Source: Roseobacter fucihabitans
GTDB lineage: Bacteria > Pseudomonadota > Alphaproteobacteria > Rhodobacterales > Rhodobacteraceae
Assembly (NCBI RefSeq): GCF_014337925.2
Contig: NZ_CP143423.1
Coordinates: 3,688,501-3,752,500, forward strand
Length of the DNA: 64,000 bases
Reading direction: 5' to 3'
The position numbers and the translations under genes are program-made. The notes beneath the pieces were generated by a model. It worked only from the letters and a program-made list of their open reading frames with translations. It did no database searches and had not been told where the DNA came from. Below are positions 3,588 through 61,910 of the stretch, one piece after another; the stretch's first letter is position 1, and each line of letters opens with the position of its first letter.

Positions 3588-3690
3588 CTTGAGAGGTTGG
3601 CGCGGGCGAGCGCCTCGCCAACCCGGTCAGAGCCGGAAGGCAGCAGCCGTAACGAGCCCCGCTTGGGTCGTTGTCCAGCCTCTCACCCGC
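3588..3690 (+). ncRNA. ffs: Signal recognition particle RNA, bacterial small (4.5S) type
   Basis: The hallmark apical region is present: GGTCAGAGCCGGAAGGCAGCAGCC followed by GAGCCC, which forms the GGAA-capped SRP54/Ffh-binding hairpin with its symmetric internal loop. The outer arms close: GAGAGG at 3591-3596 pairs with CCTCTC at 3679-3684, giving a hairpin of about 100 nt, the usual alphaproteobacterial small form. Position upstream of dnaX is also a common arrangement. Ends are estimated from the stem. Partner is Ffh in co-translational membrane targeting. Confidence 0.93.
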
Positions 3691-11070: not shown

Positions 11071-12480
11071 AACCACGACCGCCTTTTATGGTTACCGCCT
11101 ATGGTGCAAGTTGTTTTTGACGCTGTAAGCATGTGATTGAGTGCGGTCTTCTATCAGGCCTTTGAGTGCGGCACTTCAGCAGCCGCTGGCCGGTATGGTG
11201 ATCTGCGGATCAGGTCCAAATCTGACGTACGAGCTTTGCTGCTCAGCCGGTAGTCTTGGTTTTCCTAATCCAGGTCTATTCGATCAATTTGCCCATTCAG
11301 GTCATCGACTTCTCACACCTCCTTCACCGACGTCAGATTGCTGTGCGCAGAGCTAGCGTCATACTGCTGCTGCCGCCTGCGTCGGATCTCTGTAATCTTC
11401 ATTATGCGTCATCATGGCCCAGATCGCGCGCGCCATTTTGTTTGCCAATGCGATTGCCACCAGCATCCGAGGCTTTCTCTCTAACATTCGCGCCAGCCAC
11501 GAGCCTGGCCGGATCGACTTGCGTCCAAGCCAGTTGAGCCGCATCATTGCTCCAATGATCAAAAGCCGGCGAATGTCAGCCTGCCCTGCTTTTGAGATCC
11601 GCCCAAGCCGGGCCTTGCCGCCTGAGGAATGTTGACGGGGCACCAAACCAAGCCAGGCGGCAAAATCCCGCCCACATTTAAAACTGCTCATCGGCGGAGC
11701 AAAAGCTTCAATAGCTAACGCCGTTAGAGGTCCAACGCCTGGCATCGTCTGTAATTGCCGGGTTAAATCCGCATTCTTTGACAGGACCTTGGCTTTCTTC
11801 GTTTTGGCTTCAATTCGGGCTGTCTTCTCGGCGATCTGTAAAATGAGATCTCGGCACGCTTCAAGGGCCAGTTCAGGTAGCTCTCCGTTCGATCCCTCAA
11901 GGGTGGCCTCGATACGCTTGAGGTTCGCAATGCCTAGCGGAAAAACATGGCCATATTCATACATCACCGCCCGAAGAGCATTCACCAATTCTGTCCGATG
12001 GCGAACAAGGCGTTCTCTGGCTCGGAACAATACCGCCCGGGCCTGCTGCTCTTGTGTTTTAGGCTCGACAAAGCGCATCTCAGGGCGCTGTGCTGCAATC
12101 ACAATGGCTTCTGCGTCCGCCGCATCATTCTTCTGCCGCTTTACGAAGGGCTTTACATACTGAGGAGCAATTAACTTTACCCTATGTCCAAATTTTACCA
12201 TCTGACGAGCCCAGTAGTGAGCACCACCACAGGATTCCAGAACCACTACACAAGGTGGGTGATCTGCCATAAATTTATGAAACTGCGGTCGCGAGAGCTT
12301 CTTTCGAAACTTGACCTCCCCAGTCATAGATGCTCCGTGAACTTGGAGCACATTCTTTGCTAAATCCACCCCGATCATAGTATCTTTCATCCTGCCGCCC
12401 TTTCCGTATTGTGAGTTTCAACACCACATATTGGCACATTGCGATGCCGTCTGGGGAGGGCGGCAACCATCCCGTCTGGC
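11071..12480 (-). mobile_element. IS110-family element, IS1111-type, copy 1
   Basis: A 1410-base segment that matches 37131-38540 at every position I compared. Subterminal inverted repeats of 12 bases (11 matching) are visible: ATGGTTACCGCC at 11088-11099 and, on the other strand, ATGGTTGCCGCC at 12470-12459. Short subterminal repeats and a long non-coding end downstream of the transposase (11071-11358, 288 bases) are typical of the IS1111 group. No target duplication is evident, as expected for IS110. It is inserted into the 3' part of a broken IS200-type transposase gene. Sequence shared by the two copies reaches 17 and 10 bases beyond the inverted repeats, so exact ends are uncertain. Confidence 0.9.
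11359..12390 (-). CDS. IS110-family (IS1111-type) transposase, copy 1
   Basis: 343-residue DEDD transposase. The N-terminal RuvC-like domain shows D9 (IGVDLAKN), E52 (VVLESCGG) and the KNDAADAEAI motif at about 87-96. A helical, Lys-rich linker follows, then the C-terminal Tnp20 domain with MPGVGPLTALAIEAF and the catalytic serine region RQHSSGGKARLG at about 252-263. Full length, no lesion seen, so probably active. The same protein is encoded at 37419-38450. These enzymes act with a structured guide RNA encoded in the non-coding end of the element. Confidence 0.95.
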   Translation of the reverse strand: MKDTMIGVDLAKNVLQVHGASMTGEVKFRKKLSRPQFHKFMADHPPCVVVLESCGGAHYWARQMVKFGHRVKLIAPQYVKPFVKRQKNDAADAEAIVIAAQRPEMRFVEPKTQEQQARAVLFRARERLVRHRTELVNALRAVMYEYGHVFPLGIANLKRIEATLEGSNGELPELALEACRDLILQIAEKTARIEAKTKKAKVLSKNADLTRQLQTMPGVGPLTALAIEAFAPPMSSFKCGRDFAAWLGLVPRQHSSGGKARLGRISKAGQADIRRLLIIGAMMRLNWLGRKSIRPGSWLARMLERKPRMLVAIALANKMARAIWAMMTHNEDYRDPTQAAAAV

Positions 12481-12926
12481 GTCGGTAGGATTGGTGATAT
12501 GCTGTTCCAGATACTGAAGTACGATGTCTTTGGTCCCTCTCGGGATCATGCTGCGCATGACCCTGTCGGGCAATGGATGGCACCGTTGGTGGTTGAAAAG
12601 TACCCACGGCCCCAAAAGTGCCTGCCCCAATAGCGTTTTTTGAGATGGGGGAACCCTTGCTGTATTTTGTGGGACGACCTGCCCTTCATCAGCCGTACCA
12701 GATCACTGATTGCCAGTTTCGGTGGGACCGACACGAACATATGAACGTGATCGCTCGACAAAACGCCCTTGATGATCTCGACGCCGCTCTGCGCACAAAC
12801 CTGGCGGAAGATATCACGGACCCGCAAGCGCAACAGGCCGCACAGTACCTTGAACCGGTATTTCGTCGACCAGACCAGGTGATATCTGTGATAGTAAACG
12901 CAATGTTTGCCGGTCGAGTATTGCAT
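12481..12926 (-). pseudogene. tnpA: IS200-type transposase tnpA, disrupted
   Basis: Y1 transposase. Residues 1-118 are in frame: MQYSTGKHCVYYHRYHLVWSTKYR at the N-terminus, the HUH motif in SSDHVHMFVSVPP and the catalytic-Tyr region FWGRGYFSTTNGAI. Then a 41-base hairpin element (12535-12575) shifts the frame. The true continuation, TKDIVLQYLEQHITNPTD, is found in another frame beyond it before the IS1111-type element cuts the gene. Active-site residues are preserved, so loss of function is due to the frame lesion and the truncation. Confidence 0.85.
12535..12575 (+). repeat. Hairpin mini-element, copy A (in IS200 tnpA)
   Basis: 41 nt beginning CCCTCTCGGGATCATGCTGC and ending CCTGTCGGGCAATG. 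It folds as GGG-A-TCATGC / GCATGA-CCC with loop TGC and one bulged A. Removing it joins the tnpA frame exactly (N-G-A-I / T-K-D-I-V-L), so it is an insertion. On the gene's strand it follows CATC. Related copies lie at 60721, 60801, 61005 (partial) and 61371. Confidence 0.75.
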
Positions 12927-12929
12927 GTT

Positions 12930-12989
12930 CTTATCCTCCCCGGAAATGAGCCTTAAGACCTGCGACGGCTCATTTCTGGGGAGGATAAG
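12930..12989 (-). promoter_or_regulatory. Long leader hairpin masking the tnpA ribosome site
   Basis: Bases 12930-12952 pair with 12967-12989, 23 positions with one mismatch, around a 14-base loop. On the minus strand the distal arm contains GGGGAGG, the only good ribosome-binding site, 8 bases before the tnpA ATG. Sequestering of the ribosome site by a leader hairpin is a known way in which IS200 limits its own transposase. Confidence 0.7.
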
Positions 12990-23986: not shown

Positions 23987-24015
23987 CAAAAAAGGACCGG
24001 GCACAAGGCCCGGCC
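23987..24015 (-). terminator. Rho-independent terminator of the CenR-like gene
   Basis: On the minus strand GGCCGGGCC-TTGT-GCCCGGTCC is followed by TTTTTTGT. It lies about 125 bases beyond the stop of the response-regulator gene and before the divergent xth gene. Confidence 0.75.
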
Positions 24016-24138
24016 AAGTCCAACAGGGAGGTGCACGTCAAACACCCGGACGTGCGCGGGATTCGATTACCGGATCAGCATGACTGCCATCCGATAAGAT
24101 TAATATAGAGACAAAATGGTTAACAAAAACCAAACATC

Positions 24139-60242: not shown

Positions 60243-60720
60243 TAAAAATGCTCCCCGTCAGTGATCTTCAATGTTGCCTTTGTCACCGGTTTTAAACTGA
60301 ATCGTCAAAAGGCAGCGACACTACGATACCCCGTAGAAGTGACTCAGCTTGCTTTGTTCTGTCTTGAACAATGCGAAGTGACTCGGATTTCGAACCTTGA
60401 GCTAGCGCACTCTCAGAGGTTGTCGCAAGATTTCGGACCAGTCGTTAAGGTGGATTAATTTGTGAAAGAAGTGATCCCAAATGACGAAACGAAAGAATTA
60501 TTCGCCCGATTTCAAAGCTAAGGTTGCGCTTGAAGCAATTCGCGAGGAGATGACGTTGGCGGAGCTGTCCAAGAAATATGGCATTCACCCGACGCAGATT
60601 GGGACATGGAAATGCGCGGCGATAGAGAACCTGGCGACGGCCTTTACGCGCCGAGGGTCCGTCGCTGAGCAGGTGCAGCCCCAGAACAGGTGAGCATTGC
60701 GGACGTCGACAAGTTGCATT

Positions 60721-60761
60721 CTGTCAACCGGCAGGTGATTGCCTGCAATCACTGAGAGGGG
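60721..60761 (-). repeat. Hairpin mini-element, copy E
   Basis: 41 nt on plus strand from CTGTCAACCGGCAGG to GAGAGGGG. Stem GTGATTGC / GCAATCAC, 8 perfect pairs, in a sequence different from the other copies. It interrupts IS3 orfA between K-L-H-S and K-I-G-Q, following CATT(C). Confidence 0.6.
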
Positions 60762-60800
60762 AAGATCGGCCAGCTGGTGGTGGAGCGGGATTTTTTGGCC

Positions 60801-60841
60801 CCCTCCCGGCAGCATGCTGCGCATGCGCCTGTCGGGCAGTG
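60801..60841 (+). repeat. Hairpin mini-element, copy B
   Basis: 41 nt from CCCTCCCGGCAGCATGC to CTGTCGGGCAGTG. Folds as GGC-A-GCATGC / GCATGC-GCC, loop TGC, bulged A, the same shape as copy A with both arms changed in step. It is 40 bases downstream of copy E in the same IS3 orfA, before GATG. Confidence 0.75.
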
Positions 60842-61004
60842 GATGCCTCGCATCAGTTGCTCGGGACGCGAGGCAAAAATGGTGAGTAAGGAGCACAAGC
60901 TGAGTGTACGCCGTCAATGCAAGCTGCTGACGCTGACCCGATCCCACTTGTACTATGAACCGAAGGGGGAGAGCGCTGAGAACCTACGGTTCATGGAAAT
61001 CATT

Positions 61005-61019
61005 CACTGCCCGGCAGGG
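61005..61019 (-). repeat. Hairpin mini-element, partial copy C
   Basis: CACTGCCCGGCAGGG, the conserved flank of the family, directly after ATCATT in IS3 orfB. The rest of the element and of orfB are absent, so this copy sits at a rearrangement breakpoint. Confidence 0.5.
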
Positions 61020-61205
61020 TTATCCCCCATTCGTAAGACCAGTAATACTTGCAGCCGAGAAAGGGAAAACGCGTGTTGCTTGTAAAAAGAGTCGATTGGA
61101 TTCAGCAATTTTCTGCCAATTTCTGAAGAGAGCTGCAGCAACCTTGCCCTGATCCCCAAGTCTCATCCGGCTTTGCGCGGAATCCTTTGGGTTAGATCTT
61201 TGGCG

Positions 61206-61910
61206 TTAGGCGGCCATTTTGTCCATCGCCTTTCTGTGCGAGAATTCCATCGGGGTCAGGTTTCCCGAGCCTGAATGTGGTCTTTGCCAGTTGTAATCCT
61301 CCTGCCATTCCTCGAGCGTTTTGCGAGCATCGCCTAAAGCACCAAACAGCGTTTCGTTGAGGCATTCATCCACTGCCCGGCAGTGCATGTTTACATGCAC
61401 GAGAGGGGCGCAGCTTGCCGTTGAAGCTTTCAATGAAACCGTTCTGCCGGGGCCTTCCGGGCGCGATGTAGTGCCAGTCAATGCCGGTATCCTGAACCCA
61501 TTTGAGAGGATCGCCATGCTGGTGAACTCGGTACCGTTGTCCGATACAATCGTCGTTGGCATGCCGCGTTCAGTAATGATCTGATCCAGTTCACGCGCGA
61601 CCGTTGACCAGACAGCGACGTGTCGGCCACCAGCACCAAGTTCTCGCGGCTGAAGCCATCGACAACTGCCAAAATGCGAAACCGACGTCCATCTGTCAGC
61701 GCGTCAGACACGAAATCCAACGACCAATGCTGGTTCGGTCCGTTGGGCAATACATTGGCTTCCTCGTTCCCAACGCGCGCTTCCTGCCACCCCTGCGACA
61801 CACCTGAAGCTTCTCTTCACGATAGATGCGCCGCACTTTCTTGTGGTTCACCTCAAAGCCCTCCCGCGCAATCATCACGTGGATGCGGCGGCACCCAAAC
61901 AAAAAGGTCA
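61206..61910 (-). pseudogene. IS3-family element remnant 2 (orfB, decayed)
   Basis: The integrase-type OrfB is spread over three frames: GCRRIHVMIAREGFEVNHKKVRRIYREEKLQVCRRGG, then NQHWSLDFVSDALTDGRRFRILAVVDGFS (first Asp), then [19 protein letters not shown] (second Asp), then [33 protein letters not shown] and MEFSHRKAMDKMAA. Extra bases include a CT after MAIL and a 37-nt hairpin element at 61371-61407. It faces remnant 1 in opposite direction. A different IS3 type from remnant 1. Confidence 0.87.
61371..61407 (-). repeat. Hairpin mini-element, copy D
   Basis: 37 nt from CACTGCCCGGCAGTGC to GAGAGGG. Stem GTGCATG / CATGCAC with loop TTTA. Inserted after CATC in IS3 orfB, between the codons for K-L-R and D-E-C-L-N-E. 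Removing it restores the protein match. Confidence 0.75.

Follow-up and report, generated by a model that had tools for sequence, protein, structure and literature searches.

A 64,000-nt stretch of the Roseobacter fucihabitans genome (contig NZ_CP143423.1, positions 3,688,501 to 3,752,500; hereafter the window) contains five copies of a small hairpin element, each sitting in a transposase remnant and each alignable with an element-free plasmid relative, which raises the question of whether these hairpins move and what might move them. Small palindromic repeats have long been known, and the movement of those kinds that lack a RAYT transposase is the question on which this family bears. A reading made from the sequence of the window alone (the sequence-only reading) had proposed a mobile palindromic repeat, and this proposal is supported by 74 flank clusters in this genome and by 31 precise empty sites. 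Overall, we consider it probable that the hairpins are a non-autonomous mobile family that is specialised on insertion sequences (ISs) and served by an enzyme that acts in trans. Exact empty sites, a defined target, the reuse of sites and IS hosts that order the events together make movement directly testable in this family.

Hairpin structure and precise insertion

The element is about 36-45 nt long (34-48 nt were seen). Its conserved foot consists of CCCTCYC and TGYCGGGCARTG, which flank a self-complementary middle of widely varying sequence and length. The commonest form is 41 nt long with the middle GGN-A-NNNTGC-TNC-GCANNN-NCC, the bulged A of which is retained in at least 90% of 39 copies. 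The observation in the sequence-only reading that the arms vary and still pair is borne out for the central helix by covariation and by slid controls. Specifically, among 39 distinct copies of the 41-nt type pairing is kept in 93.4% of the central-helix cells, with 7/9 pairs changed on both sides, and in 87.5% of cells across the whole structure versus 31-46% in the slid controls. The outer helix is weaker (79.9% paired, with 2/7 pairs often broken). Pairing of the predicted hairpin is thus supported by covariation, with the outer helix less certain. A total of 106 different middles occur in 146 copies with distinct flanks, and 75% of the middles contain a perfect stem of at least 5 bp versus 6.4% of shuffles; this search held the feet fixed and is silent on foot variation, some of which is seen in covariance-model matches. 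A stem that changes freely while its pairing is kept calls for an explanation, for instance that one arm serves as template for the other or that hairpins are swapped at the foot. The RNA folding energy of four single copies was unremarkable (z -0.2 to -1.8), and no match at the Rfam gathering score was found at the elements in the window, in 3 loci and in 15 further loci.

A covariance model built from 11 copies (R1) revealed many dispersed copies across the genome, at least 150 places in all, so that further copies, the absence of which would have spoken against a mobile family, are abundant. The 60 loci of this genome that were chosen for containing matches hold 209 of them, which fall into the 74 flank clusters (36 clusters are single-copy), and five of six more foot-bearing places beyond these loci also gave a model match. 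Among a set of relatives, 25/59 genomes including R. fucihabitans, and thus 24/58 others with 1 to 51 matches each, contain an R1 match (E <= 0.01) in a search that used stricter filters and scored at most 106 candidates per genome. In a draw from the class, 11/385 genomes including R. fucihabitans have a match (E <= 1e-4), six of which belong to other families. The exact foot followed by GATG is present in at least 120 loci elsewhere among genome contigs, and the titles of the 80 loci listed, read as titles only, name Rhodobacterales except for one metagenome-assembled genome that is named only as alphaproteobacterial. The same pattern also occurs in ten phage-collection contigs, one of which (L293; loci and genomes carry L and G handles) lacks a clear hairpin.

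We compared filled with empty sites by removing the element and aligning the joined flanks with element-free homologs. Such a homolog was present among the loci compared for 35 of the 74 sites tried, and in 31/35 cases its alignment with the joined flanks is gap-free across the 10 columns either side of the junction. The piece removed was the model match minus its last four bases (GATG in the consensus), so these four bases belong to the target, and insertion occurs directly 5' of GAYG (3' of CRTC on the other strand). Element-free homologs carry GATG at the target in 10/31 cases and GACG in 3/31, which is GAYG in 13/31 versus 1.1% of positions (six plasmid loci); read on the other strand, CRTC is present at 13/31 empty sites with CATC commoner than CGTC. 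No target duplication was seen at the aligned empty sites. These alignments bear directly on the idea that the hairpin is simply a native part of its host ISs and was never inserted. One IS110 group would fit this idea, as the element is at one place in all seven aligned copies, but element-free relatives were found for that group and for other aligned ISs, and the same foot recurs in unrelated ISs (93 occurrences of the motif TGYCGGGCARTGG versus one of its reversed control). The empty sites contradict a native origin, which we regard as the least credible of the explanations considered.

Single sites were also seen in filled, empty or differently filled states. L065 contains an intergenic repeat in two paralogs, one filled and one empty, at a distance of 235 bp. 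The IS110 group has a 37-nt hairpin in L237 and a 41-nt hairpin at the identical position in L217, two loci that are only 67.7% identical, and this position is empty in the close relative of each, L298 for L237 (87.8% identity) and L299 for L217 (91.2% identity). Likewise, the istB genes of the IS21 copies in L118 and L127 bear different hairpins before the same GACG. These cases reflect repeated insertion at one site, precise loss or exchange of the hairpin in place, each of which needs precise mobility.

Removed lengths of 36, 37, 40 and 41 nt, among others, mix within one gene and often shift the frame; the 41-nt and 37-nt insertions do so, and the 36-nt ones contain an in-frame TGA. As a statistic, restoration of open reading frames is weak because noise frames are long in high-GC DNA: the median frame is 453 nt after exact removal, 423-432 nt with errors of 1-2 nt and 393.5 nt with the element retained, and frames of at least 450 nt number 38/74, 32-33/74 and 28/74, respectively. 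The argument for insertion rests on single cases and on the empty-site alignments, not on this statistic.

Insertion sequences as hosts

Pfam matches to frames in or directly beside the sites identified IS3 (rve, HTH_21), IS21 (IstB, Mu-type C domain), IS66, IS5/IS1182-type (DDE_Tnp_1, DUF772, DDE_Tnp_1_6), IS256 (Transposase_mut), IS110 and IS91 (Y2_Tnp) transposases as well as a tyrosine integrase. With IS200 and IS30, which come from annotated matches, the total is at least nine IS families. We take two further hosts, named by eye, to be IS481 and ISAs1, and an IS630 label rests on a DDE_3 match below the cut-off. IS6 and IS1595 were rejected as hosts since their frames merely adjoin elements, and L088 is a weak match (30.4 bits) to which no IS was assigned.

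The preference for ISs was quantified in loci of other genera, using 38 reference IS stretches, leaving out copies near locus ends, and taking as controls randomly drawn positions that lay 2 kb or more from the elements in 113 of these loci. By this measure 77/130 elements lie inside IS homology versus 1.9% of control positions, a figure that misses IS families outside the reference; more transposases are present among the remaining loci. When like flanks are collapsed, 64/105 lie in IS homology; their median protein identity to the best-matching reference is 58%, indicating that the hosts are largely different ISs.

An IS bias of this kind could also arise if the hairpin lands anywhere before GAYG and survives mainly in dispensable DNA, which is mostly ISs, so that the element would be mobile without any targeting. 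GAYG is a common sequence, insertions into ordinary genes would be purged, and some copies do lie in intergenic repeats. However, the control positions include spacers, and spacer DNA, if neutral, should hold many copies. Furthermore, the IS21 in L118 gained three elements without any other disabling change, and the IS3 in L102 gained four and one deletion; at such a rate of insertion neutral spacers should be full of elements. We therefore judge random insertion followed by selection to be possible but rather unlikely. The IS bias itself is shown, and we lean towards targeting over selection because several insertions occur in otherwise intact ISs and elements are scarce elsewhere. If the preference does reflect targeting, it would amount to a natural brake on ISs and to a new way of recognising mobile DNA.

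The state of the host ISs gives the order of events. In the IS21 of L118, istA and istB are open over 520 and 270 codons, respectively, once its three elements are omitted. Likewise, orfB in the five-element IS3 of L102 is free of stops and frameshifts as far as the fifth element when the elements are omitted, and a coding deletion of ~138 bp ends exactly at that fifth element. A deletion near position 3770 of L090 also ends exactly at an element, and we infer that both deletions arose by recombination between two elements. Older hosts such as L090 and L103 bear ordinary frameshifts or stops as well. The description of the host transposases as dead in the sequence-only reading holds with a qualification: certain hosts are intact apart from the elements, such as the IS21 of L118, where these are the sole disabling change seen.

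Element-bearing ISs have also multiplied. The five-element IS3 is present in five full copies with the same ends, different flanks and >99% identity, and other units with elements inside recur in several places at 99.5-100% identity over ~1.4 kb. Interruption has thus not stopped these ISs from moving, and a transposase supplied from elsewhere is the simplest explanation. One rival explanation is that the hairpins are removed or ignored at the RNA level, either by splicing or by ribosomes that bypass them, as they hop over the bypass elements of yeast mitochondria, such that interrupted transposases still function. The five full copies and the hosts that lack other damage would accord with this, but the five-element IS3 spread despite its coding deletion, the related L090 and L103 carry ordinary frameshifts or stops, and removal would be needless for copies that lie in non-coding repeats or at the non-coding end of IS110. 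Both orientations moreover occur within one gene: in L127, 7/8 elements of the IS21 are in sense orientation, and in L102, 4/5 elements of the IS3 are antisense. Such a mix suggests an element that works at the level of DNA rather than within the RNA of its host gene, and removal at the RNA level is very improbable.

A second rival is that a cellular system which recognises mobile or repeated DNA inserts the hairpins and thereby switches transposases off. Such a system would account for the many unrelated IS families, the several insertions per IS and the hosts that are otherwise partly intact. No system of this kind was found, however, interrupted ISs still spread, the distribution of the family among the sampled relatives is patchy, and another IS3 of the same genome (e.g. 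G000 C1:592192-593339) with 19 copies is uninterrupted over its 1148-nt match. We thus think a host-encoded brake improbable.

Three side observations concern particular host sequences. A GC-rich intergenic repeat without an Rfam match is present in ten loci of several genera (L241, L201, L193, L177, L280, L179, L192, L256, L278 and L065), and an element often lies in it before the same GATG. What is conserved beside the element in the L241 group belongs to a separate repeat, as demonstrated by the empty paralog in L065. In L237, L229, L178, L217 and their relatives the hairpins lie in a non-coding stretch downstream of the IS110 transposase, where we would expect an IS1111-type bridge RNA. 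Finally, the istB region of the nine-element IS21 in L127 is longer by ~41 nt than that of L144 and L145. This extra stretch, which the model did not pick up, contains the small hairpins CTCGCC/GGCGAG and GCGCACC/GGTGCG and perhaps represents another small palindromic family.

Search for the enzyme and a proposed mechanism

The Y1 transposase domain (PF01797) was undetected in 19/24 element-bearing relatives, including G016 (33 matches, one contig), G031 (32), G020 (14), G009 (13) and G010 (8). It is present in G003, G012, G014, G025, G033 and the R. fucihabitans genome, and in the latter the ends of the IS200-type Y1 copies inspected do not resemble the element foot. On these grounds a Y1 or RAYT enzyme was rejected as a required mover, indicating that RAYT is not evidently needed. 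A reverse transcriptase was set aside as well, with RVT_1 undetected in 14/24 element-bearing relatives, and the IS91-type Y2 domain (PF04986) was undetected in 8/15 element-bearing relatives searched, including G012 (28 matches). Draft assemblies may hide genes; G016, which has no detected Y1, is a single contig. The present absence of these genes may be compatible with a mover that acted in the past or with a distant enzyme.

Exact joins without duplication, a bulged hairpin and a middle that depends on pairing are expected traces of single-strand hairpin transposition. The element would thus move as a folded single strand, with an enzyme that recognises the foot together with a paired stem and attaches the hairpin next to the tetranucleotide CRTC, much as IS200/IS605 enzymes do at their own tetranucleotides. 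This enzyme would act in trans, and nothing evident marks it as a standard Y1 transposase, a reverse transcriptase or an IS91 enzyme. Insertion would be biased to ISs and other repeats, and copies would also spread by riding on those ISs.

Several points count against this explanation. Searches of the genome and of element-bearing relatives revealed neither a mover gene nor an autonomous parent. Right feet without a left partner, scanned in 66 loci of the R. fucihabitans genome, may be read as palindromic read-backs of known copies, as truncated or older copies, or as chance occurrences. The target preference is loose, with varied four-mers other than GATG or GACG at 18/31 empty sites. The reference ISs behind the bias of 77/130 were partly chosen for bearing elements, some copies lie outside ISs, and several have no assignment. 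Strand preference relative to replication, in our own tally of single-copy chromosomal sites, is 20/30 and not significant. Lastly, IS91 genes are present in 7/15 element-bearing genomes versus 0/4 element-free genus-mates or near relatives, a loose association by which an IS91 enzyme may have had a past role.

A bolder version of this explanation is that these hairpins form a new class of hyperparasites, which combine a fixed foot with a rewritable palindrome, home on repeated or mobile DNA of any family and rely on an enzyme that belongs to none of the known single-strand transposase families. We hold this version only tentatively and would be doubtful of it as things stand; if true, the cell may gain from it since the hairpins switch ISs off.

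Window copies and relation to known systems

All five copies that the sequence-only reading had marked in the window stand, with small changes of their borders by alignment with element-free relatives (Table 1). For the truncated copy C the presence holds and the end at 61019 does not, the true end in the element-free alignment being 61023. Its flank cluster also contains L091, L098 and L121, and an R1 match at L125 4502-4564 was rejected as a full copy as it is only remnant C. Element E diverges at the end where GGGCARTG is expected and was not reported in L125 by R1 at E <= 0.01; its identification is based on the motif and the empty site. The relatives L166 and L167 aligned to the host of D are plasmid copies, one of which is annotated as IS3. 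The pattern CCCTCYC-N(8-34)-CTGYCGG occurs 4 times in the window versus 0.08 expected, and the right-hand motif with at most 3 mismatches 6 times versus 1.24 expected.

Table 1. Positions of the hairpin elements, their hosts and two structured RNAs, numbered from the first base of the window.
Feature	Position	Strand	Description	Basis
IS200/IS605-type tnpA stretch, host of A	12472..12954	-		blastn to annotated tnpA; PF01797 match
Element A	12535..12575	+	41 nt, within 3' part of IS200 tnpA (gene on minus strand), before GATG	R1 match G000:C1:3701035-3701079; empty site in Leisingera plasmid IS200 copy L140
IS3 remnant 1, host of E, B, C	60415..61023	+	unit complete in L104	100% identity to L104 10773-11381; aligned with annotated IS3 copies L164, L165 (Roseovarius and Phaeobacter plasmids)
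Element E	about 60722-60760 (+/-1)	-	about 39 nt	39-nt gap in L164, L165
Element B	60801..60841	+	41 nt, before GATG	R1 match; 41-nt gap in L164, L165
Element C	61005..61023	-	truncated	full in L104 at identical place; empty in L164, L165
IS3 remnant 2, host of D	61192..61896	-		blastn to plasmid IS3 copies; alignment with L166, L167
Element D	61371..61407	-	37 nt	R1 match in L125; 37-nt gap in L166, L167
Bacterial small signal recognition particle RNA	3591-3687			Rfam
SorX small RNA	23989-24062			Rfam

The sequence-only reading knew of no described family with such flanks, and we likewise found none in the open-licence literature of PubMed Central, foot sequences included. Among known systems, IS200/IS605 transposition uses a hairpin substrate and inserts beside a tetranucleotide without target duplication. 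Our elements share the hairpin, the lack of a duplication and the tetranucleotide-adjacent insertion, a preference that is partial here; they differ in having no gene inside and in a foot that is unlike the ends of the inspected Y1 copies of the same genome. Rickettsia palindromic elements (RPEs) sit inside coding sequence and are kept in frame in working genes. The present elements are also palindromes in coding sequence, but they often shift the frame. The GC clusters of fungal mitochondria and the bypass elements are tiny mobile hairpins in genes whose stems change while pairing is kept; in contrast to these, the present family is bacterial, IS-directed and has a defined target tetranucleotide with no sign of removal at the RNA level. 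The boxes of integron attC sites (RYYYAAC / GTTRRRY) are, by eye, not in the element consensus, and a target duplication of the type left by miniature inverted-repeat transposable elements was not seen in the empty-site alignments.

Repetitive extragenic palindromic (REP) elements that are associated with RAYT are GTAG-tagged small imperfect hairpins (PMC3733652). The present elements are similar in being small imperfect hairpins of high copy number with a tetranucleotide at one end and presumed single-strand movement. Unlike REPs, they have no GTAG, with a flank consensus of GATG/GACG instead, Y1 is undetected in most bearers, and their location inside IS homology makes them mostly not extragenic. 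The comparison with REP and Rickettsia elements that the sequence-only reading had drawn thus holds for the general logic and fails for membership, given the bearers mostly without Y1, the IS location and the frame shifts; the family works like REP and RPE but lacks features by which these are defined.

A further comparison is with CGTC-tagged palindromic repeats, among them Rickettsia RPE-4 and RPE-6, which, in the portions of the source covered here, have no known dedicated transposase, stems of 8-9 bp that nearly always begin with A/T pairs, and a CCA-type tail (PMC3733652). Both are short palindromes, frequent in Alphaproteobacteria, with variable stems (compare PMC3733652, as far as covered). 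The end tag of the present family on one strand, CRTC, resembles CGTC, although it is present at only 13/31 empty sites and mostly as CATC. The foot of our elements is CAYTGCC.../...GAGAGGG, their hosts are ISs, and in many element-free relatives the tag is a target sequence that existed before the insertion. Measured against that partial description, our alignment consensus has neither A/T pairs at stem positions one and two nor a CCA-type tail (PMC3733652). Compared by this description, the family may share its tag with the CGTC-tagged repeats, and not their stem or tail.
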